Shown piece after piece: positions 10,755 through 33,399 of a stretch of DNA of 37,847 nt (position 1 is the first letter of the stretch; every line of letters begins with the position of its first letter). This DNA is from Candidatus Chloroploca asiatica (GTDB taxonomy: Bacteria > Chloroflexota > Chloroflexia > Chloroflexales > Chloroflexaceae). The notes beneath the pieces were generated by a model. That model saw only the letters and a program-made list of their open reading frames with translations, did not search any database and was not told where the DNA came from. Location: contig NZ_LYXE01000122.1 of assembly GCF_002532075.1 (NCBI RefSeq), positions 1-37,847 of the forward strand, in the 5' to 3' direction. Both the position numbers and the translations under genes were made by a program.

Positions 10755-11501
10755 TTATTGTGTACTAAAGATCAGATCACGTCGGGCAAATGCGTAGATC
10801 GCAAGCCCGAGGAGCGAAATGAGGAGCGACGCCTGGGCGAAGAGATTCGCCAGGGCTGTGGCGGAACTGTAATCGCGGGTGACTGCGAGTTGAAAGCCAT
10901 AAAAGGCGGGCACCAGGGGGCCACCAAGCAGCGCTTGTAGGGCGCGGAGCAGGGCCCGCACTGCTTCGGGAAGCGCATTGAGTAGTTGCCCACCGATGAA
11001 ATTCCCTGAAAAAGCGAGCGCGATCAGGCTCAAGATAAAGAGCCGCCAGCCGGTCGGCAAGACCAGCGGTGAGAGCAAGAGCATCAAGGCGGCGAGCAGG
11101 CCAATATTGAGGAGCAACGGCAGGGTGCCGAGCAGCCAGTTGAGCAGATCAAGCTCGGTGGGAGGATTGAACAAGGCGACGATGACCGAGATAAGCCCAT
11201 ATGTTCCGGCGACAAGTGTCCACGCCGTGAAAAAGAGCCCGAGGAGAAAGGTGGCTCGTCCGATGCCCCGTGAGACAACGACATAACCCTGGGGGCGATC
11301 CCCGAGGCTGATCACGATTGCCATCGTATAGAGCGTCAACAGGGGCGTAAAGATGCCGACGACATTGAAAAAGTAGGTCACATCCATTGGGCGACGCAAA
11401 AAGATCGCATAGATCAGCAGGGCGGCAATGATCTCGATGGCAACCCGTCCCGAGCGTAGATATTCGAGTAGCGAAAAGCCGGTAAATCGTAACAGCCGCA
11501 T
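10755..11501 (-). CDS. ABC-2-type transporter permease
   Basis: A 248-residue membrane protein with about six membrane segments and the N-terminal amphipathic 'LLRFTGFSLLEYLRSGRVAIEI' start seen in ABC-2 exporter permeases. It has no recognisable substrate signature. It follows the ATPase gene by 33 bases, so the two should form one exporter. ATG at 11501 is the only good start near the first membrane segment. Confidence 0.72.
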   Translation of the reverse strand: MRLLRFTGFSLLEYLRSGRVAIEIIAALLIYAIFLRRPMDVTYFFNVVGIFTPLLTLYTMAIVISLGDRPQGYVVVSRGIGRATFLLGLFFTAWTLVAGTYGLISVIVALFNPPTELDLLNWLLGTLPLLLNIGLLAALMLLLSPLVLPTGWRLFILSLIALAFSGNFIGGQLLNALPEAVRALLRALQALLGGPLVPAFYGFQLAVTRDYSSATALANLFAQASLLISLLGLAIYAFARRDLIFSTQ

Positions 11502-11534
11502 ACCTCTGTTCGTCTCCTGTGGCTCAACGGTGCC

Positions 11535-12614
11535 TTATTTGTCTTCGGTCTTTCCGGTTTGCAACAGTTCATGCAAAAGAGGATCGCGCTCACCCTGGCG
11601 CTCGGGTGACGCCACCTTCTCGGGAGGCGTGCGGGTGAGGATGGGGCGCTGTGAGTTATTGAACATGCCCAAGGACGTGTGGAGGCCGCTCGGTAGTTTG
11701 GTGGCTTGAATGGTTTCAAGGTAGAGGCGTTCAATGGGGTTTTCCAGCGGCTCGAGCATCAGGATGACCACATTCGCATCTAGCAGGGTCCGCAAAACCG
11801 CTGCTTGCAAACGCGGTGAATTCTGGCTGATGCGCACACTCTGGCCTTCACAATGAATACCTGGCCCGAGGGTGTGCAGCGCTTCTTGGACTTGTGCCGT
11901 CATCCCTTGTACCTTGATCCGTACGCTATTTACGATGCCCTGCAGATCAGCGACCTTTCTTTCGACCGCAATGCGCCCGTTCGCCATGATCCCGACGCGA
12001 TCACAGAGTTGATCAATCTCATGCATATAATGCGTACACAGAAAGAGCGTGTGGTTGCGCTGGCGCACCTCGTTGAGCAGGTCGATTACCTCACGCTGTC
12101 CCGTAGGATCGAGCCCACTGGTCGGCTCATCAATCAGCAAGAGATCGGGATCCATCAGCAACGCCTGCGCAATGCCAAGGCGTTGCAGCATGCCCTTCGA
12201 GAAGGTTGCCAGGCGGCGGTCGGCTACCTCGGTGAGGCCCACCAGGGCCAATTCACGGTCAACCCGCTCGTGCATGGCTGCCCCGGTCAACCCACTGAAA
12301 CTTCCGAGAAAGCGCAGGTACTCACGGGCACTGTAGGCCATGTGGTAACGCTGTCGTTCGGGCAGATAGCCAACCCGTAACCGGATTTGCTCAAGCCTGG
12401 TGGTGCCAAGCAGTGCGATCTGTCCCCGGTCAGGTCGCAAAAAACCCAGCATCAAATGGATCAACGTTGATTTGCCCGCTCCGTTGGGGCCCAGCAAGCC
12501 GAAAGACTCGCCTGCTCCGACCCGCAGATTGAGCCCTTGCAACACTGACACATCGCCATAGGCCTTGTACAGATTAGCAATGTCAATAACGGCTGTCACT
12601 GAAGCTCCAAGCAT
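11535..12614 (-). CDS. ABC transporter ATP-binding protein
   Basis: A 359-residue ATPase of the NatA/CcmA export type: Walker A GPNGAGKST (about 43-51), signature FSKGMLQR (about 138-145), Walker B LLLIDEPTSGLDP (about 158-170) and H-loop CTHYMHE (about 193-199). A C-terminal polar extension of roughly 50 residues after about 305 is unusual for the family. The annotated ATG directly abuts the stop of the preceding NuoH-like gene (TAA then ATG), implying translational coupling. A GTG seven codons or fewer downstream could also serve as start. Partner permease is the next gene. Confidence 0.88.
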   Translation of the reverse strand: MLGASVTAVIDIANLYKAYGDVSVLQGLNLRVGAGESFGLLGPNGAGKSTLIHLMLGFLRPDRGQIALLGTTRLEQIRLRVGYLPERQRYHMAYSAREYLRFLGSFSGLTGAAMHERVDRELALVGLTEVADRRLATFSKGMLQRLGIAQALLMDPDLLLIDEPTSGLDPTGQREVIDLLNEVRQRNHTLFLCTHYMHEIDQLCDRVGIMANGRIAVERKVADLQGIVNSVRIKVQGMTAQVQEALHTLGPGIHCEGQSVRISQNSPRLQAAVLRTLLDANVVILMLEPLENPIERLYLETIQATKLPSGLHTSLGMFNNSQRPILTRTPPEKVASPERQGERDPLLHELLQTGKTEDK

Positions 12615-13427
12615 TTAGCGTACCACACTCAGCACCACCGTTGCGACCAGGGTCAACGGTAGGGGCCAGATCAAACAGAAGCGCAGGGCATCGGGCAGGG
12701 TCAGGCGTGCCTGGCGACCGTCAAAGTTACGCAAGAGTAGTGCCCCGATCACGATCCCGCCCACGATCAGCGGCAAGCTGATGAAGGTTGGAACCAAGCC
12801 GACTGGTAACACGGCCACGAGCACGGCTGCTAGCAACATTCCGGCGCGCAGATCACGGGCTAGTTTGTCCAAAGCCTGCCCATCGGCATCGAGCCCGGCC
12901 GCCACCCCCCCTGGGGTGATAAACTCTTCAGGACCAAAGGGACCCCACCCGATTGCTATCGGGAAGGCGATCAGGGCCCCGAGCAGGGCAAGCATATGGG
13001 CAAGTAGAGCGATTGTATCCCAGCGTTGATGCAAGGTCAAGGCCACCGCGAGGGCTCCCCACAATAAGGCCCGCGCCAAAGTGCCAAGCTGGGCTTCGCG
13101 GATTGCCGCCCGCCCGAGCGCTGGTCTTCCGGTGAGCAAGGCTGGCACAAGGGGCACCAGAAACGCTAGTTCAAAGGCGAGCCAAGCCCAGAGCCAGCTT
13201 GTCGTGGCCCCACTCGGATGCAGCGGCCAGGGCAACAACGCCAACCCCAGGCTCGCCAGCACCAGTCCAGCCAAATGGGCCCGTCCCTCCTGGCTTTGGA
13301 GTGCTGCCATGCCCTCGACACCAGGCTTCCCCCGGCGTACCACACGGTAGAGCAACCCCGCGACAAGGGCGGTCAACGCCCCGGGATACAGGAGCGCCGA
13401 GCCAATGATGAGTAGAAGAGCATTCAT
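12615..13427 (-). CDS. NuoH/HyfC-like membrane subunit of a complex I-related complex
   Basis: A 270-residue protein with about seven to eight membrane segments. The order of features recalls NuoH/HyfC: a first helix and a basic loop (LLYRVVRRGKPGVEG) where the family has 'R-x-x-x-R-x-G-P'; then IREAQLGTLARALLWGAL; then an acidic loop GPFGPEEFITPG before the last three helices. The family motifs are weak, so this assignment leans on gene order. The ATG at 13427 is preferred to an upstream in-frame ATG at 13475, which would overlap the previous gene more deeply. In related complexes this subunit joins the membrane arm to the large and small subunits. The stop is directly followed by the ABC ATPase ATG. 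Confidence 0.55.
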   Translation of the reverse strand: MNALLLIIGSALLYPGALTALVAGLLYRVVRRGKPGVEGMAALQSQEGRAHLAGLVLASLGLALLPWPLHPSGATTSWLWAWLAFELAFLVPLVPALLTGRPALGRAAIREAQLGTLARALLWGALAVALTLHQRWDTIALLAHMLALLGALIAFPIAIGWGPFGPEEFITPGGVAAGLDADGQALDKLARDLRAGMLLAAVLVAVLPVGLVPTFISLPLIVGGIVIGALLLRNFDGRQARLTLPDALRFCLIWPLPLTLVATVVLSVVR

Positions 13428-13431
13428 AAGC

Positions 13432-14883
13432 CTACAAAGCCTGGATAAAGGCGAGACCACGGATTGCCTCATCAATCACCGCGAGCAACGGTTGTGGATA
13501 GAGGCCCACGCCGAGGGTGATGAGCATCAAGAGCAACGTCAACACAGCGGCACTCGGCGGTTCGGGTTCCAGGCGACGCTGGGGCGGACGGTCGAGTTCG
13601 GTTTCACCGAGCATCAGTGGCTCGACCACCAGCGTATCTTCGCCGGGGCCTAGCAACCGTTCAGCGGCGATCCGTGCCAGGCCAAGCCCGGCGAGCAGCG
13701 TGCCGAGCAACAAAATCGACAACTCGAGCCAACCCTTCTCGGCAGCCGCCTGATAGATCAACAGATGGCTCATCGCCCCACCGAGCGGTGGTAGCCCGAG
13801 CAGCGAGAGCCCACTGACGATCAACCCGGTCGCCGCGACCGGCCAGCGCCGCAAGAGATCCCGTCTGACCACCCCTGGTGTGCGTCCATCGGGGCGTTCG
13901 AGCAACCCGAGGCTCACAAAGAGCAGCATCACGGCCAGGGTCTGATTAAAAGCCCCAAAGATCGCCCCCGCGAGTCCGAGTTCTGAGACGGCAGCCAGGC
14001 CGTAGAAGACGATCCCGCAATGGTAGAGGATCAGGTACGCGCTTGTCCGCCGCAACGATGCCGGTGCCAGGGCAAGGAGCCCCGCAACGATGACGCTGAC
14101 CAGCGCCCCGAGGCGTATCACAAAGAGCACCTCGGCACTCTCGACGAGCAGCATCGGATAGCTTTGAAACACGAGAATCAGCACGAGCAGACTCGTCGTA
14201 TTGAGCAGGGTAATCGTCACGGCCGAAACAAGCGTCTCGGCGTAATCAACCAGATCGGTGAGCCACGTATGAAACGGGATCAGCGCCAGGCGAAGGGCGA
14301 AACTGGTCGCAAGCAGGGCCAGAATGAAACGGGCAAGCGAAATCCGCCCGGGTAGTTCCCCAGGCTGGAAGACATCAGTCAGGACAAACGCAATATACAT
14401 CAAGACTGTAGCCACGACCATCAAGACGAGATACTTGAGCGCTGCGGCAATGACCCGTGTACTGACGAGCGCACTCGCGCCTACAGGCAGATCAACGATC
14501 GTCAGAACGGTGGTCAAGCTGGTTGAAGCAAGCAAAAGCGTGGTAATAAATGGATCTTGCAACAAGAGTACGCCACTGATCTGGGCGAGCGTCAGCAGCG
14601 TAATTGGCACAAAATTCTCGCCATGCGGCAAATGGCGGGCGGCAACAAAGGCAAACACCCCGATCCCGAGAAAGATCAGCAAAAAGACCTGCCCCAGCGT
14701 ACTCAGCGTCAGCGTCACCCCGAGAAAGCGGGTTGGCTGGTCAATCGGCAATTGTAGCGCGATCCAGACTTGCGTCAGTACCGTGCCGAGCGCCGCAAAA
14801 ATAACCAGTTCGCTTCTCCGTCGCAGGATAAACGTACTGATCGCCATCGTGATCGGAAAAAAGATCAAAAGCAAATAGAGCAT
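13432..14883 (-). CDS. NuoN/NuoM/HyfF-like proton-translocating antiporter subunit
   Basis: A 483-residue protein with about 13-14 membrane segments. The antiporter-type core is recognisable: KYLVLMVVATVLMYIA (TM5-6 region), LRLALIPFHTWLTDLVDY where the family has 'FK-x-x-x-x-P-x-H-x-W-L-P-D', RRTSAYLILYHCGIV and LLGLPPLGGAMSH. The lysine of TM7 that relays protons is replaced by Arg (ALRLALIP), and the later 'G-x-x-x-K' lysine by His. It lies three bases after the HyfE-like gene. It is the best-conserved membrane subunit of the cluster and supports the complex I/group 4 hydrogenase relationship. Confidence 0.78.
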   Translation of the reverse strand: MLYLLLIFFPITMAISTFILRRRSELVIFAALGTVLTQVWIALQLPIDQPTRFLGVTLTLSTLGQVFLLIFLGIGVFAFVAARHLPHGENFVPITLLTLAQISGVLLLQDPFITTLLLASTSLTTVLTIVDLPVGASALVSTRVIAAALKYLVLMVVATVLMYIAFVLTDVFQPGELPGRISLARFILALLATSFALRLALIPFHTWLTDLVDYAETLVSAVTITLLNTTSLLVLILVFQSYPMLLVESAEVLFVIRLGALVSVIVAGLLALAPASLRRTSAYLILYHCGIVFYGLAAVSELGLAGAIFGAFNQTLAVMLLFVSLGLLERPDGRTPGVVRRDLLRRWPVAATGLIVSGLSLLGLPPLGGAMSHLLIYQAAAEKGWLELSILLLGTLLAGLGLARIAAERLLGPGEDTLVVEPLMLGETELDRPPQRRLEPEPPSAAVLTLLLMLITLGVGLYPQPLLAVIDEAIRGLAFIQAL

Positions 14884-14886
14884 GGC

Positions 14887-15612
14887 CTACCGATAGAGCT
14901 CACTCAGATCAAGGGTCTTGAGTCGTCCGTAGAGGAGCCCGCTCAAATACGCTACGGCCAAGGCCAGCAGCAGATGGAACAGGCTCAAGAGCGCAAGTGG
15001 GATGACATTCAGCCCACTCGCATCAGGTGTACTAACTACTGCCATATAGAGCACGTCAACGGCACTTACACAGAGCAGCAAGCCGAGGCCGATCTTCAAC
15101 ACATCAACCGCCGTTGCGATAGTCAAAATACCCGTCAGCACCAGCCAGTACCAGACAAAATCACTGGCTACCGTGGGTGCAATCGCATAGACTCGTGGCA
15201 GGATCAGGCTGGCCAGCAGGGCGAGGACGCCAGCCCAGAAGGGCAACACATACTCACTGAACTGAAACGGTTGATTGGCGCGCTGGCGTTGCGCGGCGCG
15301 AGCGGCCCGGCGCAACTCGGCCATGCCAAACTCATCGAGATTCTCGAGGCCATACTCGCGTGAGAAGGTGAGCGCGGTAATGCCCAGGATCAGCGCGACA
15401 CTGATCCCGGTAATAACCTTGACGATGAGCAGGGTACTCACCGCGAATCCAAAGATCGGCAGATCCCCGCTAATAAACTGCTGCTCGACGAGGAAGAAGG
15501 CCTGGGCCACATAGTTGAGCAACAGAGCAGCAACGGTAATGCGCCAATCCCGAAACAGCAGGATGACTGCGGCTGTAATCCCAATTCCAAGCAGAAGCCA
15601 GTTGATACTCAT
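14887..15612 (-). CDS. HyfE/NuoK-like membrane subunit
   Basis: A 241-residue protein with six to seven membrane segments and a hydrophilic Arg-rich loop in the middle (about 92-115). The C-terminal half (DVLKIGLGLLLCVSAVDVLY, then a helix pair) resembles the NuoK-like part of HyfE. The family glutamates of NuoK are not clearly present. Length is close to HyfE (about 216). Its start overlaps the stop of the NuoL-like gene by four bases (ATGA). Assignment is by fold pattern and position. Confidence 0.55.
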   Translation of the reverse strand: MSINWLLLGIGITAAVILLFRDWRITVAALLLNYVAQAFFLVEQQFISGDLPIFGFAVSTLLIVKVITGISVALILGITALTFSREYGLENLDEFGMAELRRAARAAQRQRANQPFQFSEYVLPFWAGVLALLASLILPRVYAIAPTVASDFVWYWLVLTGILTIATAVDVLKIGLGLLLCVSAVDVLYMAVVSTPDASGLNVIPLALLSLFHLLLALAVAYLSGLLYGRLKTLDLSELYR

Positions 15613-17348
15613 TGTGCCATCAACAACATAATCGTAAGCAGCGCTGCCAACATACCCAGCAGATAGTAGCGCTGTTCAAAGAATCCAAGCACAAACCGCA
15701 ACCCTTGACTGACGCCTTGCAACGCTCGCCAGATAGTCTGCCAGCCCTGGGTTGGGTTACTCAGGTGCGCTAGAGGTTGCAACACCGTTCCTAGTCCTTC
15801 GGCAGTCAAGAAGGTGAGTTCCTCGTCAAGATCCCGTTCGAGCGTCCGTGCAATGGGGCGACGAGCAAGCATAAGTGCCAGTACGATCAAGACGCCGCCT
15901 GCGATCCCGGTCGCAAGTTGGGCCCCGAAGCTGACCGGAAAGTCCACCGGGGCAAAAGTAAGCGTGGCGAGCCACGGTTCCCACACGAGGGTAGGGATCA
16001 GCCCGAGCAGCACGACTGGGGCACCCGCCATCGCAAGCAGCAGCCGCTCAACCAAACTCATCCCCGATCCGGTGCGTTCCTTGCCCTGCCCCCAGAGCCG
16101 GGCGAGGGGCACGAGGAGGGCCAGTACCATCAGCACCATGCTTGCAATGACCAGGGCAAGCAGCCAGGGGTACTGCTCTTGGATAGCTTGGAAGAGCCAC
16201 AGACGTGGCCAGAACCCCCATAGCGGCGGCAAGCCGAGGGCGAGTGCGCCTGCAACGAGCCACGTCACCCCGACGAGCCGGGGCAACGCGAGGCCTGGCA
16301 CTGTAACGTCGTCGCTCCCCGTCATGCGTTCAAAGCTCGCCACGGCTGTCGCCCCAATGACCCCACTCAACATCAGGCTGACCAGTTGCCCTGGCGCGGC
16401 CAGCGCGGCCAGCGGCCCGGCCAGGCCGATACTAACCACAATGGCGGCCACTTGAAACGTCAGCATCAACGCAAGCAATGGACGCAGACGCCGGGTGGCA
16501 AGTGCTGCTGCGGCACATCCGAGCATGCCGAGTGTTCCGAGCAGCGCGATCGCGATCGCCCAGCGATTAGGTAAAATCGGCAAAGCACTGATGACTTGCA
16601 AGAACCAGTTGAGGCCTGCCACCGGCATAGCGAGCCCATAGATCAGGGTTGCCAGGGGCGCAGGAAAGGCAAAGGCCTCGTTGCGGCCGCCGGCCAGGGG
16701 GGGGCTTCCGGCAAAGGCAAACGCCGCGACAAGCAGCAACACGAGGGCCGGCCACATCGAGAGGCTTCCATCTTCAATCAGCGTACCAGGGGCAAGGATG
16801 GCGGCGGCTACCAGCAGACTTGCCAGCAGACCTGTGATCAAGCCGCGGGGCAACAAGGCGGGAGTCTCTGGCGCAACCGCCGTGCCAGTTGTGACCCCAC
16901 TAGCCTGAAACATCGCATAGCCACTGAGCGTCATCACGGTCCAGGCCAACGGATGGACAAGCGAAAACGGAGGGGCGGCCAGACTCATCACGGCTGCCGT
17001 CAAACAGATCAGCGCCCAGCCAAAAATCGCCCCAAACCCACGCACCCCAGGGGCGATGGCCGCAGCGAGCGAGAGGAGCATCAGCCCGCCGCTCCCCAGG
17101 AGGGTCAGTGCGAGCGCACGTTCATTTGCTAGCAAACCGGGCGTGAGGCTTGCCTGCACGGTACCCAGCAGCAACATCACGATCGGCGGTTCATCAGGTG
17201 TTGCCAACGGTGCTATGCCAAGGATGCCAACGCTGATCAGCATCATGAGCGCCGCGCCAAACCCGATCTGGCGTGCAGGCACAAGCTGTCCAAGCCCAAA
17301 GCTTAGCGCTGCAGCAAGCAGCAAAATAGTTGGTACAAGGAAAAACAT
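15609..17348 (-). CDS. NuoL/HyfB-like membrane subunit with degenerate proton-relay motifs
   Basis: A 579-residue protein with about 15-16 membrane segments. The region that should read 'G-K-S-A-Q-x-P-x-H-x-W-L-P-x-A' is instead AFAGSPPLAGGRNEAF, followed by the matching PAPLATLIYG (family: PTPVSALIH/YG). Alignment is clear, but the key Lys, His and Trp are gone. GLPPLWGFWPRLWLFQA matches the 'LPPLSGFFAK' helix with Lys changed to Arg. The C-terminal FFEQRYYLLGMLAALL tail is the extra helix seen in HyfB/Ech-type subunits. It overlaps the large-subunit stop by one base. It is probably part of the membrane arm, but its pumping ability is doubtful. Confidence 0.65.
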   Translation of the reverse strand: MFFLVPTILLLAAALSFGLGQLVPARQIGFGAALMMLISVGILGIAPLATPDEPPIVMLLLGTVQASLTPGLLANERALALTLLGSGGLMLLSLAAAIAPGVRGFGAIFGWALICLTAAVMSLAAPPFSLVHPLAWTVMTLSGYAMFQASGVTTGTAVAPETPALLPRGLITGLLASLLVAAAILAPGTLIEDGSLSMWPALVLLLVAAFAFAGSPPLAGGRNEAFAFPAPLATLIYGLAMPVAGLNWFLQVISALPILPNRWAIAIALLGTLGMLGCAAAALATRRLRPLLALMLTFQVAAIVVSIGLAGPLAALAAPGQLVSLMLSGVIGATAVASFERMTGSDDVTVPGLALPRLVGVTWLVAGALALGLPPLWGFWPRLWLFQAIQEQYPWLLALVIASMVLMVLALLVPLARLWGQGKERTGSGMSLVERLLLAMAGAPVVLLGLIPTLVWEPWLATLTFAPVDFPVSFGAQLATGIAGGVLIVLALMLARRPIARTLERDLDEELTFLTAEGLGTVLQPLAHLSNPTQGWQTIWRALQGVSQGLRFVLGFFEQRYYLLGMLAALLTIMLLMAQ

Positions 17349-18427
17349 CAGTAGCCTGTCTCCACACAGGTATCACATGGATCAGTGGAAACAAAGACCA
17401 GCGCGGCATCATCAACCTGTGCATTCACAAGCAGACTACGGGTCAACAAGCGATCAACTTGTGGCGCGAGCCGATAGCTGACACTGGTCAAACGACGGCC
17501 ATCACTCTCGACATGATAGGTAATGGGGCCACGGGCCCCTTCGACGGTTGCATTGGTGATACTTGCCGGCAAGCGTTCGGGCAACTCCCCACAAATCTCG
17601 CCGCCGGGCAACTCACGCGAAGCCCGTCCAACCAACTTGAGGCTCTCGAGCAACTCAAGCACCAGCACGACCAGCCGCGCATACACATCGCCACTCGGCT
17701 GAGTCACCCGTTCTGGTGGCAGGCTCGCATATGCTGCATAGGGCTTGTCGATCCGCAAATCGCTGGTGAGCCCCGAGGCGCGCCCGAGGGGGCCTTCGAG
17801 CCGGAACTGCGTGGCGGCGTGGGTGGTAATGACCCCGACATCCACCGTACGGGCGAGCAACGAACGCTGGCTCAGCATGCGGTCAACAACAGGGAAGAGG
17901 ATCGCAATGAGTTCAACCGAGGTCTGCTCAAGCACTTCACGTACCGAGGCATCGCTATCATAACCTACACCACCGGGGATGAGCCAGTCACCTGGTTCAG
18001 TCGCCGTCAGCGTGGTCAAGGTGGCCTGGAGGCGTGCGTCCGTGGTGGTGAAGGGTTCGGCGAGACTAGCGAGGCCCAGCGCCGTCAAGATCGCAGCGAC
18101 GGCGGCTGCATGCGAACTAGCCCGTTCAAGTTCTGCTGCGGCAACCCGTAAAAAAGCTGCCCGTGGGGGGACTTCAATGCCCGCCAGAAGTTCGATCGCT
18201 TGACAGAGCGCCAGGCCATGAGCGACCCCGCATCCCGGGGCTGATTGGGCCGCAGCCGCAATGAGTTGGGCCGGGGTAAACTGGGCAGCATGGGTCAGCG
18301 CTGTCTCGGTCGCGGTATCGGGACGATATTCGACATCCACAATCCGCTCGCCATCGATTTTGAGCAAGATGCGCTGAGGACGGGTCAAGCCCGGGGCTTG
18401 CGGTTTGAGCGTCAGCACATAGGTCAA
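17348..18427 (-). CDS. NuoD/HycE-like large subunit of an energy-converting hydrogenase-related complex
   Basis: A 359-residue protein starting at TTG 18427, where AGGAGG lies six bases upstream; an in-frame ATG at 18472 sits only 12 bases after a -10 box and is less likely. It follows group 4 hydrogenase large subunits. GCGVAHGLALCQAIE stands where catalytic forms have 'CGIC-x-x-x-H' (Cys66 kept, first Cys replaced by Ala63). IEVPPRAAFLRVAAAELERA, then LRIDKPYAAY, then DPCDTC near the end (Cys351, Cys354) are also present. Three of four Ni-ligand positions are therefore present, so normal H2 chemistry is unlikely. No NuoB-like small subunit, NuoC/NuoI-like subunit or maturation protease is encoded nearby. 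It is the first gene of the long minus-strand run. Confidence 0.72.
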   Translation of the reverse strand: MTYVLTLKPQAPGLTRPQRILLKIDGERIVDVEYRPDTATETALTHAAQFTPAQLIAAAAQSAPGCGVAHGLALCQAIELLAGIEVPPRAAFLRVAAAELERASSHAAAVAAILTALGLASLAEPFTTTDARLQATLTTLTATEPGDWLIPGGVGYDSDASVREVLEQTSVELIAILFPVVDRMLSQRSLLARTVDVGVITTHAATQFRLEGPLGRASGLTSDLRIDKPYAAYASLPPERVTQPSGDVYARLVVLVLELLESLKLVGRASRELPGGEICGELPERLPASITNATVEGARGPITYHVESDGRRLTSVSYRLAPQVDRLLTRSLLVNAQVDDAALVFVSTDPCDTCVETGY

Positions 18428-26218: not shown

Positions 26219-27148
26219 ATGGTTATGGATCCACTTGTCATTGACAAGATTGCGAAGTCATTTGCTACGCAAGTTGCGGTGCGTGAAGTGAGTTTTCGCG
26301 TTGGCCCTGGCGAAATCTTTGCGCTGCTTGGCCCGAATGGGGCTGGCAAGACGACGACGATCCGTATGGCGCTGGATATTTTCAAGCCTGATCGTGGCAC
26401 GATTGCGCTTTTTGGGCAGGCTCCTGGTCTCGATGCCCTTGATCGCATCGGGTACCTCCCCGAGGAACGAGGTCTCTACCGTAATCTGAATCTGCTGGAT
26501 TGCCTGATCTATCTGGCCGGGCTCAAGGGGGTGCGCACAAGCGAAGCGCGTCGTCGGCTCACGCTCTGGCTCGAGCGTTTTGATCTTGCGACCCATACGC
26601 AGAAGAAGATCAATGATTTGAGTCGTGGTATGCAGCAGAAGGCGCAGTTTATTGCGGCACTGATCCACGAACCGGACTTATTAATCGTTGATGAGCCGTT
26701 TGCGGCCCTTGATCCGGTCAATACGCGCCTTATCAAAGAAGTCCTGCGTGAATTTGCTGCCCAGGGGCGCACAGTGATCATGTCAACCCATCAGATGCAC
26801 CTGGTAGAAGAATTGGCCGAGCGCATGGTGATGATCAACCGCGGCGAGGTGGTGCTCTATGGCACAGTTGATGAGGTACGGCGCCAATTTGCCGCCAATG
26901 CCGTGCTGCTTGATGGTCACGGCCCTCTCGCTGCGCTACCTGGTGTGCTTTCGGTAGAACCACTTGGTGATACTGGCACGCTTCTGCTGCACCTTGATGA
27001 GACCACGGCGCCCCGTGAGATTTTTCAGGCCCTGGCGGCGCAGCCTGCGTATACAGTCGATCGTTTTGCGGTAGCGTTGCCGTCCCTTGATGAGATCTTT
27101 GTGCGCGTGGTGGAGGGGACGCATCTTGCCGAGGAGGTGATGGCATGA
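26219..27148 (+). CDS. ABC transporter ATP-binding protein (NatA/YhaQ type)
   Basis: A 309-residue ATPase: Walker A LLGPNGAGKTTTIR (about 37-50), signature LSRGMQQKAQF (about 139-149), Walker B LLIVDEPFAALDP (about 158-170), H-loop STHQMH (about 191-196). A C-terminal domain of about 75 residues (from GTVDEVRRQF) closes the protein as in Na+/drug exporter ATPases. ATG 26219 or ATG 26225 can be the start; neither has a good ribosome site. Overlaps the first permease by four bases (ATGA). Together with the two permeases it forms an exporter of NatAB type; the substrate is not known. Confidence 0.9.
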   Translation: MVMDPLVIDKIAKSFATQVAVREVSFRVGPGEIFALLGPNGAGKTTTIRMALDIFKPDRGTIALFGQAPGLDALDRIGYLPEERGLYRNLNLLDCLIYLAGLKGVRTSEARRRLTLWLERFDLATHTQKKINDLSRGMQQKAQFIAALIHEPDLLIVDEPFAALDPVNTRLIKEVLREFAAQGRTVIMSTHQMHLVEELAERMVMINRGEVVLYGTVDEVRRQFAANAVLLDGHGPLAALPGVLSVEPLGDTGTLLLHLDETTAPREIFQALAAQPAYTVDRFAVALPSLDEIFVRVVEGTHLAEEVMA

Positions 27149-28356
27149 TCAGGTTGCTGCACGTTGCGCATCACGAATATCTGCTCCATGTGCGTCGGCG
27201 AGGCTTTTTGTTGGCAACTTTGGGCTTGCCGCTTCTTGTGCTCGTTGGGATGGCCTTGATTGTGATCGTCAATCTTGTTCGTCCGGAAACTGCGATCGGG
27301 TATGTCGATCAGTCTGGTCTTTTCAGCGGAGCGGCCTTGACTGCTCCATCGGACAATGATGAGCAGGCTATTCAACTGGTTCGCTTTGCCGACCATGAAG
27401 CAGCCAATACGGCTCTTGCCACAGGTGCTATTGACAGCTATGTTGTGATCGCAGATGACTATGCGGCGACTGGTGCGCTTGTGCTGTATGGGGCTGAGCG
27501 GCTCTCGCCACCTGGCCAACGTCGTTTGCAGGTTGCCCTCAATCAGGGTTTGCTGGCGCGTGCTGACCTTGCTGCCGACGTGGCTATGGTGGCGCTGGAT
27601 CCCCTGGCTCATCTTGAGTCGCGCCATGTTGACGGTACACCCCTTGATCCCTCAGCGCTGGGCCAGCGCATCATTGTCGCGATCCTCGGGAGCTTGCTCT
27701 TTATGGTGACGATCTTTTCTTCGGCGAGCTATTTGCTGCAGGCACTCGTGGAGGAGAAGGAGAACCGCACGATTGAGATTATCACGACTTCAATCAGTCC
27801 TGGACAGCTGATTGGTGGCAAGGTTCTTGGTTTAGGCTTGCTTGGCCTTACGATTGCGCTCGTCTGGTTGAGCGGCGTGGCTCTTGCCTGGGGCATCGGG
27901 GCGGTTTTTGTGGATCCATTGCGCGAGGTACGCCTCAGCCTCGGCGGCTTTGTGCCGATTCTGCTCTTTTTAATTCCGGGCTACTTGCTCTTTGCCGGGC
28001 TGATGGTTGCGATCAGCGCGATTGTGCCAACAGCGCAAGAGGCACAACAGTTTGCCGGCTTGACCACAGTCGTGGCGATCTTGCCCTTGATGCTCAGCGT
28101 GATCTTTTTTACCAACCCCGATGGCCTGATTGCCGTTACCCTTAGCCTCTTTCCCCTTTCGGCACCCATAGGGATGTTGCTTCGCCTCGTGCTGGGCAAT
28201 GTGCCTGGATGGCAGATAGGGCTGAGCTTCAGCCTCCTGGTTGTCTCGGCATGGCTGGCCGTTTGGATGGCAACGCGGATCTTTCGGGTGGGAATGCTGC
28301 GTTATGGTCAACGCTTGCGCGTACGGGAGATCGTGCGCGCTGTACGCATCGGTTGA
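27145..28356 (+). CDS. ABC-2 transporter permease (NatB/YhaP type), first copy
   Basis: A 403-residue permease with an N-terminal membrane helix (about 20-44), a large extracellular region of about 130 residues and five to six C-terminal helices. VEEKENRTIEIITTSISPGQ (about 201-220) is the conserved cytoplasmic loop of this family. The following LIGGKVLGLGLLGL is also typical. ATGA overlap with the ATPase implies coupling. The second permease follows 14 bases later and is about the same length, so the pair may act as a heterodimer. Confidence 0.88.
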   Translation: MIRLLHVAHHEYLLHVRRRGFLLATLGLPLLVLVGMALIVIVNLVRPETAIGYVDQSGLFSGAALTAPSDNDEQAIQLVRFADHEAANTALATGAIDSYVVIADDYAATGALVLYGAERLSPPGQRRLQVALNQGLLARADLAADVAMVALDPLAHLESRHVDGTPLDPSALGQRIIVAILGSLLFMVTIFSSASYLLQALVEEKENRTIEIITTSISPGQLIGGKVLGLGLLGLTIALVWLSGVALAWGIGAVFVDPLREVRLSLGGFVPILLFLIPGYLLFAGLMVAISAIVPTAQEAQQFAGLTTVVAILPLMLSVIFFTNPDGLIAVTLSLFPLSAPIGMLLRLVLGNVPGWQIGLSFSLLVVSAWLAVWMATRIFRVGMLRYGQRLRVREIVRAVRIG

Positions 28357-28370
28357 TCGAGGAGGATCCT

Positions 28371-29579
28371 ATGCAACGAACTTTTCTGGTGGCAAGACAC
28401 GAGTTTCTCCGTCATGTCTTGCGCCCCAGTTTTCTGATCACGACCTTGCTCTTCCCGCTTATTCTTGGTGCCGTGATGCTCTTTATGCGTGCGAATGCAA
28501 CGACGTCTCCCGATGAACTCGCAGCTTTTACGGGCAAGCCGCTTGGCTATGTGGATGATGCGGGAGTCTTCACATTGCCTGTGCCTGCATCGCTCACGGC
28601 TCAGGTGCAGGCTTTGTCTGATGTGGCTAGTGGTGTTGAGGCCATCCAGGCGGGAGCGTTGCAGGGTTTCTACCACTTCCCAGAAGATTATTTGCAGGGA
28701 GGTACCGTTGTCTGGGTGAGTGAAGACGTGACTGGCCCTCAGGGTCAGGCATTGATTGCTACGCTTCTTCAGGCCAGCCTGCTTGCCGATCATCCTGAAC
28801 TCGTTACCCAACTTGGGCGTCCACTGGCGCTGCAACTTCCGACCGAAGACGGCCAGGCGGAACTTGCCACAGCAATGGCTGCTGAACGAGGCATGCTGAC
28901 CTTTGTGCTGCCATATGCTTTTGCAATGGTTCTCTATATTACGATCTTTTCAGCGGCAAGTTTTTTACTCCAGAGCGTGACCGAAGAGAAGGAAAATCGC
29001 ACCATCGAGCTGGTGCTCACGACCATTCGTCCCCTTGCGTTGCTGACAGGCAAAGTCCTGGGACTCGGGTTGCTTGGCTTCGTACAGGTGAGCATCTGGC
29101 TTGCGGCTGGTATGCTCTTGCTCAAGACCAGTACCGGCGCGCTTGAGCAAGCAGGTTTGGCTGTGCCGTGGACCGCAGTGGTTCTGGCGCTCGTCTATTA
29201 TCTGCTTGGCTATCTGGTGTACGGCAGTCTACTGGCTGGTGTTGGGGCTACCGTAACCCATATGCGTGAAGGTTCCCAACTGGTCGCAGTCTTGATCATC
29301 CCGTGCATTGTGCCACTCTGGTTTATGACGGCCATTATTGATCAGCCTGATAGCCTGCTGGCAAGGGGACTGAGTTTCTTCCCCATGACTGCACCAGTTA
29401 CCATGATGATCCGCGTCCCCTTGACGACGATCCCGCTGTGGGAAATCATGCTCAGTGTCAGTGTTCTGCTCGCCTCGGCAATAGCGTGTCTCTGGGTAGC
29501 GGCACGATTGTTTCGTGCCGGGACTCTGCTCGCGGGCCAACGACTTGATGCACGGGCGATTGTCAAGAGTCTAGGATGA
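28371..29579 (+). CDS. ABC-2 transporter permease (NatB/YhaP type), second copy
   Basis: A 402-residue paralogue of the first permease: N-terminal MQRTFLVARHEFLRHVLRPS, one helix (about 20-40), an extracellular part with a possible short binding fold, and the same loop TEEKENRTIELVLTTIRPLA (about 203-222). GGAGG lies six bases before ATG 28371. The frame is open back to 28209 inside the first permease, but that part does not match the family. It is the last gene of the three-gene exporter. Confidence 0.88.
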   Translation: MQRTFLVARHEFLRHVLRPSFLITTLLFPLILGAVMLFMRANATTSPDELAAFTGKPLGYVDDAGVFTLPVPASLTAQVQALSDVASGVEAIQAGALQGFYHFPEDYLQGGTVVWVSEDVTGPQGQALIATLLQASLLADHPELVTQLGRPLALQLPTEDGQAELATAMAAERGMLTFVLPYAFAMVLYITIFSAASFLLQSVTEEKENRTIELVLTTIRPLALLTGKVLGLGLLGFVQVSIWLAAGMLLLKTSTGALEQAGLAVPWTAVVLALVYYLLGYLVYGSLLAGVGATVTHMREGSQLVAVLIIPCIVPLWFMTAIIDQPDSLLARGLSFFPMTAPVTMMIRVPLTTIPLWEIMLSVSVLLASAIACLWVAARLFRAGTLLAGQRLDARAIVKSLG

Positions 29580-30657: not shown

Positions 30658-33399
30658 ATGTCTCCCCAACAAACAGAGGGCAACCTGCCCGTAAAGCAGC
30701 GTGATGAGGCGATCATCTGGCATACCGACGACGAGGAGCAGGTGCTGCAACGTCTTGAAACGTCGCTCCAGGGTTTGCCTCGTGAACGCATTGCTGAGTT
30801 GCAAGCTCGCTATGGTAAAAACACCTTTCCCTCGCAAGAGCCGATGCCCCTCTGGAAGATTATTCTCCACCAGTTCCTGAGTCCGCTGATCTATATTTTG
30901 CTCGCCGCCGCCGCAATTTCGCTCTTTCTGGGCGAGTATACCGATGCCGGGTTCATTATTGTCGTGCTCGCCATCAATGCCGCTCTAGGAACCTATCAAG
31001 AATGGCGCGCTGAACAAAATGCCGCCGCCCTGCAAAGCCTCTTGAAGATTTATGCGCGCGTGCGCCGCGATGGAAAAGAGGAGCGGATCGAGGCGGAAGA
31101 ACTGGTACCCGGCGATCTTATTGTGCTTGAGTCGGGCGACCGCGTGCCCGCAGATGTCCGGTTCCTCAAGGCCAATAACTTGACCGTTGACGAATCATTC
31201 CTGACTGGTGAGTCGATCGCTGCCGATAAGCGTGTCGGGCCACTTATCGAGGCCGATCTTCCCGTCAGTGACCGCGATAATATGGGCTACGCTGGCGCAA
31301 CCGTGCTCTCGGGGCGGGCGCAAGGGGTCGTCGTTGCGACTGGGCTCCAGACCGAGATTGGGAAGATCGCTGAGGCAACGACGAGCGGTGAGGCGACCAA
31401 AGCCCCGCTGGTGATCCGGATGGATCGTTTTGTCCGCTATATCAGCGTTGCGGTGCTCGTGGCGATGGTGGCAATGATCGTGATTGCGATGGCTCAGGGT
31501 GAACCCTTTGCCGAGATCTTTTTCCTGGCGGTTGCCCTTGCCGTTTCGGCGATCCCCGAGGGGTTACCAGTTGCGTTGACGGTGGCCCTCTCGATTGCGG
31601 TGAATCGGATGGCAAAACGCCGCGTCATTGTGCGCAAGATGACAGCCGTCGAGGGTCTCGGCAGTTGTACCCTGATTGCAAGCGATAAGACAGGTACGCT
31701 GACCGTCAATAAGCAGACGATTAAGGCGCTCGAGACAGTGTCGGGTGAGCAGTTTACGCTGACGGGCGAAGGCTATAGTGGCGAAGGCGAGGTGCGACGG
31801 GCCGATGAGCAACCAGTGAGTGAGGCCCAACGAACCTGGATCGAACGTCTCGCCCGTGCCGGTGTACTCTGCAATGAGGGCGATCTGCGGCGAACCGAGC
31901 AAGGCTGGACGTCGTCGGGCGATGCGGTGGATATCGCGTTTCTTGCCCTTGGTTATAAGGTCGGCTTTGAGCCTCAGGATCTCTATAATTCAGTCACCAC
32001 GCTGCACGAGATCCCCTTCGAGTCAGAGCGTCAGTATGCGGCGCGGATCTATCGCGAGGGCGACCAGACGATGATTGCGGTCAAAGGGGCCGCCGAACGG
32101 CTCTTGCCCTTCTGCCAGCAGGCCCTTGGTCTGGATAGTGAAGCACTTCCCCTCGATCATACGGCCATCGAGCAGCAGGTGATACGGATGGCCGATGCGG
32201 GCTACCGGGTGCTGGCAGTGGCGACGAGTCACGTGCCCGAGAAGCTGGATGGCACGACGATTGATGATGCGACGATGCCGCCGCTGACGCTGCTCGGTCT
32301 CGTTGGCATGATCGACCCGCTGCGGCCCGAGGTGATCGACGCGGTGCATACCTGCCAACGTGCCGGGATCAAGGTAGCGATGATTACCGGCGATCACCCG
32401 GCGACGGCCCTGGCGATTGCGCGTGAGCTCGGCATTGCCCAAGAGCGCAGCGATGTGGTGGTTGGCCGCGATCTGCCTGACGTTGAAACAGGCACCGATC
32501 TCGCCTTTGTCAAGGCCGTCCGCGAAGCCGAAGTCTTTGCCCGTGTAGCGCCACTGCAAAAACTGCGCATTGTTGAGGCAAAACGCGCCCTTGGTCATTT
32601 TGTCGCCGTGACTGGCGATGGCGTCAATGATGCGCCAGCGCTGCGGGCCGCTAATATCGGCGTCGCGATGGGCTCGGGTACCGATGTTGCCAAAGATACG
32701 GCCTCGATCATCGTGACCGATGACAACTTTGCCTCGATTGTCGAGGGGGTCGAAGAGGGGCGTTATGCCTATGACAATGTGCGGAAAGTCATCTACCTGC
32801 TCATCTCAACCGGGGCCGCCGAGATTGCGCTCTTCCTGATTGCGTTGTTGGTCGGTCTTCCCCTGCCCTTGCTCGCCGTGCAGATCCTGTGGCTCAATCT
32901 GGTCACCAACGGCATTCAGGGTGTTGCGCTCGCCTTTGAAGAGGGGGAACCTGGGGCAATGCAACGCCCGCCCCGCGATCCGAGTGAGGGCATCTTCAAC
33001 CCGCTGATGATCCAACAGACCCTGATCTCCGCTGGGGTCATGTTCGGGGCCACGCTTGCGGTCTGGTACTGGCTGCTCGAGCAGGGCGTAGACCAGGATT
33101 ACGCGCGCAATCTCTTGCTACTGTTGATGGTGCTCTTCCAGAATGTCCACGTCTTCAACTGCCGCTCTGAGTATACCTCGGCCTTCCGCATCCCGTTGCA
33201 GCGGAATCCCGTGCTGATCGTCGGCGTCTTTGCCGCCCTCGGTTTGCATGTGCTCTCGATGTACCTTCCCTTTATGCAAGGACTGCTGGGGATCGCGCCC
33301 GTGACCCTGACCGAGTTTTTTGCCCTTCTGGCAATTGCCTTGAGCATCTTGCTCGTGCTCGAGATCTTCAAACTCATCAAGCAACGCGCCATGAGATGA
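30658..33399 (+). CDS. P2-type cation-transporting ATPase
   Basis: A 913-residue P-type ATPase. It has an N-terminal cation-ATPase domain (about 20-65), the actuator TGES (183-186), the PEGLP motif of M4 (300-304), the phosphorylated Asp343 in SDKTGTLT, TGDGVNDAPALRAAN (about 656-670), and C-terminal helices with LWLNLVTNGIQGVALAFEEG (M6). The PEGLP motif and lack of Cys-Pro-Cys or heavy-metal domains exclude soft-metal pumps and point to Na+, Ca2+ or H+-type transport. The M6 'T-N-G' in place of SERCA 'T-D-G' leaves the ion open. ATG 30658 has only a weak ribosome site. A leader hairpin upstream may control it; an intrinsic terminator ends it. Confidence 0.92.
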   Translation: MSPQQTEGNLPVKQRDEAIIWHTDDEEQVLQRLETSLQGLPRERIAELQARYGKNTFPSQEPMPLWKIILHQFLSPLIYILLAAAAISLFLGEYTDAGFIIVVLAINAALGTYQEWRAEQNAAALQSLLKIYARVRRDGKEERIEAEELVPGDLIVLESGDRVPADVRFLKANNLTVDESFLTGESIAADKRVGPLIEADLPVSDRDNMGYAGATVLSGRAQGVVVATGLQTEIGKIAEATTSGEATKAPLVIRMDRFVRYISVAVLVAMVAMIVIAMAQGEPFAEIFFLAVALAVSAIPEGLPVALTVALSIAVNRMAKRRVIVRKMTAVEGLGSCTLIASDKTGTLTVNKQTIKALETVSGEQFTLTGEGYSGEGEVRRADEQPVSEAQRTWIERLARAGVLCNEGDLRRTEQGWTSSGDAVDIAFLALGYKVGFEPQDLYNSVTTLHEIPFESERQYAARIYREGDQTMIAVKGAAERLLPFCQQALGLDSEALPLDHTAIEQQVIRMADAGYRVLAVATSHVPEKLDGTTIDDATMPPLTLLGLVGMIDPLRPEVIDAVHTCQRAGIKVAMITGDHPATALAIARELGIAQERSDVVVGRDLPDVETGTDLAFVKAVREAEVFARVAPLQKLRIVEAKRALGHFVAVTGDGVNDAPALRAANIGVAMGSGTDVAKDTASIIVTDDNFASIVEGVEEGRYAYDNVRKVIYLLISTGAAEIALFLIALLVGLPLPLLAVQILWLNLVTNGIQGVALAFEEGEPGAMQRPPRDPSEGIFNPLMIQQTLISAGVMFGATLAVWYWLLEQGVDQDYARNLLLLLMVLFQNVHVFNCRSEYTSAFRIPLQRNPVLIVGVFAALGLHVLSMYLPFMQGLLGIAPVTLTEFFALLAIALSILLVLEIFKLIKQRAMR

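Follow-up and report, generated by a model that had tools for sequence, protein, structure and literature searches.

A complex I-superfamily gene cluster of Chloroflexales that lacks its small subunit in most Chloroflexaceae

The gene cluster and its predicted products

The stretch analysed here, hereafter the window, comprises 37,847 nucleotides of contig NZ_LYXE01000122.1 of Candidatus Chloroploca asiatica. It contains five genes on the minus strand, arranged in tandem as large subunit (LSU), AntB, K, AntF and H. As the original prediction from this DNA had stated, the five reading frames adjoin one another, all junctions being overlaps or gaps of no more than 4 bases, and the open reading frames (ORFs) of the cluster include neither an iron-sulfur (Fe-S) protein gene nor a small-subunit (SSU) gene. 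Linked to the cluster at 10755-12614 is a pair that the prediction did not mention, an ATP-binding cassette (ABC) ATPase and a membrane protein (ABCm). Related clusters occur throughout the order Chloroflexales, and in most Chloroflexaceae the SSU and several redox- and substrate-site motifs of the LSU have been lost, with the remaining genes under purifying selection as measured within Chloroploca. The features of the locus are as follows.

17348..18427, minus strand: LSU, HycE/NuoD-like large subunit; TTG start in agreement with relatives, ORF extends to 18472
15609..17348, minus strand: AntB, degenerate antiporter-like subunit (NuoL/MrpA/HyfB type), by family profile
14887..15612, minus strand: K, HyfE/NuoK-like membrane subunit, by a weak profile match
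13432..14883, minus strand: AntF, antiporter-like subunit (NuoM/N, MrpD, HyfF type), PF00361
13428..13431, minus strand: 4-bp AntF-H junction, the site of the SSU gene in relatives; AntF stop at 13432, H start at 13427
12615..13427, minus strand: H, very divergent membrane anchor of predicted NuoH/HycD fold; ORF to 13475, ATG at 13427 the likely start
11535..12614, minus strand: ABC transporter ATPase, PF00005 (E 2.9e-29); its start base adjoins the H stop
10755..11501, minus strand: ABCm, membrane protein paired with the ABC ATPase by its position after it; no Pfam match

The LSU start at TTG 18427 fits the starts of relatives, and with it the residue numbering of the original prediction holds. 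The LSU matches PF00346 (E 9.2e-27), and its family profile finds HycE as the best match in the PDB (7z0s_E, 1.1e-71), aligning over the full length of both HycE and MbhL and over about 280 residues of complex I NuoD. Its predicted structure (mean confidence, pLDDT, 92) gives Z 45.0 to HycE 7z0s_E and Z 43.7 to complex I NuoD; the protein therefore has the fold and full-length homology of HycE and MbhL, with the NuoD fold close behind. The AntB family profile matches MrpA (7qru_A, 3e-22) and 6cfw_H (8.6e-22), and AntF matches PF00361 (7.4e-17). The C-terminal part of K shows a weak NuoK-type match to 6u8y_G (E 0.0021), and we liken K to HyfE on account of its length and place. H found no match in Pfam or PDB sequence profile searches; its model (pLDDT 90.8) has the NuoH/HycD fold, with a best Z of 21.8 and a root-mean-square deviation of 3.1 over 257 residues to 7z0s_D, which we take to be HycD. 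ABCm is taken as the permease of the neighbouring ABC ATPase.

The membrane subunits are thus of the Mrp/complex I type found in energy-converting hydrogenase-related (Ehr) complexes, and the NuoB/C/D/I module that connects the arms of complex I is represented in the cluster by the NuoD-like protein alone. This profile comparison, which the original prediction had proposed, identifies the LSU as HycE/NuoD type and AntF and AntB as antiporter-like, and so supports a relation to Ehr complexes and group 4 hydrogenases. That the cluster is not due to chance follows from the Pfam match of the LSU (E 9e-27), from ratios of nonsynonymous to synonymous substitution rates (dN/dS) well below 1, and from order-wide conservation in a gene order that is constant outside Herpetosiphonaceae. 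The cluster encodes a predicted complex of the complex I superfamily that occurs throughout Chloroflexales and has group 4 hydrogenases and Ehr complexes as its relatives.

Distribution in Chloroflexales and the small subunit

A search for the LSU gave orthologues, all at E 2e-59 or better, in 39 of 40 genomes of Chloroflexales; the one exception is G330, whose contig carrying K, AntF, SSU and H stops before any LSU. K is present in all 40 genomes and, among 14 additional members of the class, in one (G281), and 18 other genomes of the phylum gave far weaker, mostly partial matches to it; a scan of the genome collection with K as query returned 58 loci. Both Chloroflexus and Roseiflexus carry the cluster. 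The neighbourhood proved to be conserved across the order, with a constant gene order except in Herpetosiphonaceae, where LSU-AntB-K-AntF lie at one site and SSU-H-ABC ATPase-ABCm at another. A photosynthesis-specific role is disfavoured, because the genes also occur in Herpetosiphonaceae and the available part of PMC5826079 describes Herpetosiphon as nonphototrophic. A literature search, with most subscription journals outside its range, returned no paper title pointing to the cluster, and the accessible parts of two papers on Chloroflexus electron transport, with locus tags not compared, do not describe it. Two metagenome-assembled genome records, L117 (Singulisphaera) and L120 (Thermoflexus hugenholtzii), group with rows named as Roseiflexaceae, and their record names look wrong.

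In many relatives, a tblastn search with the NuoB proteins of the window's genome gave a weak match located between AntF and H. The SSU gene lies exactly there, most AntF-H gaps measuring 389-539 bp; it is mostly 117-133 codons long and was recovered by motif search in 32 loci, duplicates included. In most relatives it shows the pattern NTGSCGGCD ... GRC ... GCPP, and the product is a group 4-type small subunit whose profile matches MbhJ best (4.5e-23). The SSU of Herpetosiphon has no Cys at the four ligand positions, and an SSU can therefore persist without an Fe-S cluster. The older form of the locus was likely LSU-AntB-K-AntF-SSU-H, followed by the ABC ATPase and its membrane partner.

To describe the distribution of the SSU we label the families f1 (Chloroflexaceae, with Chloroploca and Oscillochloris), f2 (Herpetosiphon, G110), f3 (Roseiflexus) and f4 (Kallotenue-like, G150). 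An SSU profile was searched over 41 genomes, with 96 bits or more taken as an orthologue. Orthologues were found in 9/9 f3, 7/7 f2 and 1/1 f4 genomes and in the single outgroup genome, G281; that is, 17 of 17 genomes from other families of the order carry an SSU, in contrast to 2 of 23 Chloroflexaceae. With this profile the window's assembly yielded no SSU orthologue, the only proteins to score being the complex I NuoB pair (53.4 and 44.3 bits); no orthologous counterpart was thus found there of the small subunit that carries the proximal [4Fe-4S] cluster in group 4 hydrogenases. In the SSU-less locus L091, the AntF-H gap is 465 bp and no SSU gene was found inside it. The original prediction would have been countered by a small-subunit gene that is always fused to or beside the cluster in relatives and is lost only here. 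Half of this holds: many relatives do have such a gene beside the cluster, but its loss extends beyond the window. Local loss or assembly error is rejected, because 21 of the 23 genomes of Chloroflexaceae share the absence, and three of these are single-contig assemblies.

The loss was also placed on a quick tree of LSUs. LSU and K were held together by 82 rows (81 loci plus the window), which gave 61 distinct LSUs; 52 of these could be scored for the SSU (present in 25, absent in 27), and nine were excluded because the contig was cut or the Herpetosiphonaceae split had been left unchecked. Absence comprises one 25-row clade (branch support, SH-aLRT, 100) plus L057 and L103, and therefore implies a minimum of three changes. 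It was judged at the locus alone for 10 of the 25 clade rows and for L103, and genome-wide for L057 (G347) and for the f1 genomes of the profile search.

Could a small subunit be supplied from elsewhere in the genome? Four PF01058 proteins are encoded in the genome of the window, all on contigs other than that of the cluster, and their neighbours (NuoD-, NuoH- and antiporter-like proteins; NiFe large subunits), examined by BLAST and by eye, point to two clusters of complex I and two hydrogenases of the NiFe type. Inventories of Chloroflexus agree with two of each, as far as the accessible parts of PMC3150298 and PMC8004040 go. The presence of two NuoB proteins, together with the retained fold of the LSU, would allow the SSU-less complex to borrow a complex I NuoB and remain a redox enzyme. 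We consider this quite improbable, given that both NuoB genes lie inside complex I clusters, that relatives keep a dedicated and clearly different SSU, and that the SSU-less clade has lost several LSU motifs of the active and substrate sites. The original prediction had left a choice between a distant small subunit and a membrane machine with a different partner; the latter fits better, since the assembly yielded no SSU orthologue.

Large-subunit motifs, ion path and selection

Group 4 hydrogenases hold nickel in a four-Cys site, RxCGxC ... DPCxxC. The window LSU reads QSAPGCGVAH ... DPCDTC at this site, with three of the four Cys and neither the R nor the G; our alignment bears out the earlier statement that Cys66, Cys351 and Cys354 are kept and that Ala occupies the first ligand position (63). 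It is thus a group 4 homologue without the full Ni/Fe ligand set, as in Ehr complexes, which the available text of PMC6349859 defines as group 4 homologues lacking full metal ligands and combined with Mrp/complex I-type membrane subunits. Among the 61 rows, Ala at the first position is confined to the three of Chloroploca. The four-Cys LSU that the original prediction set against this state does exist in relatives, in 44 of the 61 rows, though not in the window, and the missing Cys is therefore a genus-level change and not a defining trait. The glutamate described as key for proton reduction in MbhL (E21; PMC7684303, in its accessible part) is found in just one of 61 rows, L058 from outside the order; the other 60 have a different residue there, Arg in the case of the window. 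Hydrogenase activity within the order is accordingly disfavoured.

Other LSU motifs were compared with the state of the SSU. The Gly of RxCGxC is absent in all 27 SSU-less rows and kept in 21 of 25 SSU-bearing rows, the four others being two Herpetosiphonaceae rows with a Cys-less SSU, L069 and L130. We compared columns between 20 SSU-bearing rows and the 25-row clade, leaving out L058, L069, L130 and the Herpetosiphonaceae rows. The SSU-bearing rows conserve 98 columns; the clade has lost 22 of these, and 14 of the 22 fall within residues 1-66 or the C-terminal Cys motif (14/29 lost there vs 8/69 elsewhere; Fisher p 3e-4, for segments picked post hoc). These 14 include the GPxHP loop, NERG, RxCG and the residues following the last Cys; the G and H of GPxHP are found in 0/25 clade rows vs 20/20 and 18/20 SSU-bearing rows, and the SSU-less L057 likewise has no GPxHP.

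Four Cys are kept in 20 of the 25 clade rows, mostly as CPxC ... DPCxxC, Chloroploca having lost the first, so a metal site could remain. The complex might then still be a redox enzyme in which an unrelated electron-carrying protein has replaced the SSU. This is unlikely: the clade has lost the Gly and the motifs GPxHP and NERG and, the ABC pair aside, no neighbour family from outside the complex occurs in more than 14 of 63 loci, genes encoded elsewhere not having been searched for.

Three loci combine the subunits in other ways. L069 encodes an LSU without any of the four Cys (L069:10273-11388) and an SSU with all four (L069:15389-15769), the reverse of Herpetosiphon, and L130 likewise pairs a four-Cys SSU with a Cys-less LSU. 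In L058 (L058:5193-10871; G281, outside the order) the LSU has CGKC/CMAC and an E21-like Glu, and all four ligand Cys are missing from the SSU; the G281 genome yielded no H gene.

The antiporter-like subunits were compared at the positions of transmembrane helices (TM) 5, 6, 7 and 12 in 59 AntF rows, 60 AntB rows and 8 references. The TM5 Glu and TM7 Lys that mark proton-pumping subunits are both missing: the Glu is found in 0/59 AntF and 0/60 AntB rows (references 8/8), and the Lys in 0/59 AntF rows, all of which have Arg, and 0/60 AntB rows, where the residue is non-basic (references 7/8). L058 has a Glu three positions off the aligned TM5 site.

Selection was measured as dN/dS against two Chloroploca species for ten genes. 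The paired values are 0.10/0.17 for LSU, 0.21/0.22 for AntB, 0.07/0.07 for K, 0.08/0.06 for AntF, 0.07/0.15 for H, 0.16/0.10 for the ABC ATPase and 0.10/0.10 for ABCm. The range of 0.06-0.22 over these seven genes indicates purifying selection, and the genes are therefore maintained. The losses of the SSU, of one Cys ligand and of the canonical proton-path residues, along with an AntB ratio that is the highest of the ten genes, are what a decaying relic without function would show. We give that explanation very little credence, since the reading frames are intact and K is present in 40/40 genomes of the order; pseudogene decay is rejected, as no gene of the set reaches a dN/dS of 0.23.

The ABC pair, the proposed role and known systems

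The linkage of the ABC pair was counted in the 39 loci that contain H and extend 2.2 kb or more beyond it. H is followed by an ATPase in 37 of them (30 at 300 bits or more) and by an ABCm-like protein in 37 (30 at 200 bits or more). Over 63 loci the ATPase is the neighbour in 43 and ABCm in 36, the next family outside the complex reaching 14, and the Herpetosiphon split leaves H, SSU and the ABC pair together. By linkage alone, the ABC pair is the best candidate partner. A bolder proposal is that a complex I-like arm without electron transfer is driven or gated by the ABC ATPase, as an ATP-linked transporter or regulator, and this we hold to be doubtful. A separate alternative, in which the SSU-less form is an ion or solute carrier powered or gated by the ATPase, draws on the 37/39 linkage, which also survives the Herpetosiphon split; but canonical antiporter residues are missing, nothing hints at a substrate, the pair is divergent in seven loci, and the linkage of H, SSU and ABC genes may reflect operon inheritance alone, so we likewise rate it as unlikely.

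Other observations concern these genes and their surroundings. The ABC ATPase has a below-cutoff match to GldA (183 of 402.6 bits), from which a gliding role would be only a lead. A protein of about 640 amino acids, exemplified by L043:912-2852, recurs near the cluster in 14 loci. A further ABC ATPase with two ABC2-type permeases lies outside the cluster at 26219-29579 of the window, which also encodes a P-type cation ATPase (30658-33399) and a deoxyhypusine synthase family protein, here in a bacterium (1828-2892; PF01916, E 2.5e-95).

We propose that the cluster is an Ehr-like derivative of the group 4 lineage with a predicted non-redox membrane role, in which electron transfer has probably been lost, and we give this reading a probability of about 0.5. 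A non-redox role is, we infer, the simplest reading of a loss of SSU and motifs with the rest kept, and the cluster probably now serves a role other than respiration. Relatives differ in their redox equipment, with SSU and LSU both four-Cys, with a Cys-less SSU, or with no SSU. In the SSU-less form, electron uptake through the proximal [4Fe-4S] cluster would have been lost, as would proton pumping by the known route. The LSU, which usually retains four Cys (CPxC...DPCxxC) as a possible site for a structural metal, would cap the NuoH-like anchor in a non-redox membrane assembly. With low confidence, we suggest that the putative complex may work with the neighbouring ABC transporter as a regulator, docking platform or ion path.

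Several observations weigh against this proposal. The correlation between the Gly and the SSU is not significant (independent pairs, two-sided p 0.25-1), because there are just three SSU changes on the tree, and the SSU-less L103 retains GPHHP. Four Cys in most clade LSUs, along with an intact fold, mean that chemistry at the site is possible. L069/L130 and G281 show opposite Cys states, so the loci form no simple stepwise series. The ABC link is one of gene adjacency alone; in seven related loci (L064, L068, L111, L117-L119, L121) the pair scores much lower, making its orthology unsure there, and the Kallotenue-like L066 locus has neither ATPase nor ABCm. As for the ion path, the TM6 position of AntF is basic in 59/59 rows (K 44, H 10, R 5), Asp131 is invariant, and TM12 is often basic (AntF: K 25, R 11 and H 9 of 59; AntB: R 49 and K 1 of 60); together with the Arg at TM7 of AntF, these residues make an altered ion path possible. 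In engineered complex I modules, according to the accessible part of PMC11496545, substitution of the ion-pair glutamate raised proton conduction, and replacement of the middle lysine blocked it.

To our knowledge, all characterised members of the complex I superfamily with a large subunit have a small subunit that wires electrons to it, and Mrp antiporters have neither. If the proposal is true, a conserved LSU without a small subunit would show what a membrane arm and its cap do without redox chemistry, and relatives that still have the small subunit would offer a genetic test of the coupling between the two halves of the complex I family. Ehr complexes usually retain the small subunit, which is absent in the window and present in relatives. 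They share with the Chloroploca cluster a group 4-related LSU without full metal ligands and Mrp/complex I-type membrane subunits (PMC6349859, available part); the cluster differs in having no SSU, no ferredoxin-type gene and no canonical antiporter residues, and in its link to an ABC transporter.

Compared with the formate hydrogenlyase (HycCDEFG) and Hyf systems of E. coli, the LSU is closest to HycE, H to 7z0s_D, and K is HyfE-like, but the cluster is without counterparts of HycG, HycF and HycB and without a NuoC-like LSU domain, and active-site motifs are lost. With Pyrococcus MBH and MBS it shares the core, the SSU of relatives being closest to MbhJ. The LSU of MBS has also lost two Cys and the proton-reducing Glu, and its antiporter-like subunits are described as proton pumps, in the accessible part of PMC7684303; in contrast to the Chloroploca cluster, MBH and MBS keep the small subunit and three clusters. 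The canonical antiporter residues that Mrp antiporters have are missing from the MrpA/D-like subunits of the cluster, which adds an LSU and a NuoH-like subunit to them. With complex I, finally, it has NuoD-, NuoH-, NuoL/M/N- and NuoK-type parts in common, without the NuoB-, NuoI- and NuoC-type genes, the TM5 Glu or the TM7 Lys; loss of Ni-ligand Cys is also common to both, with all of them lost in complex I and one in Chloroploca.

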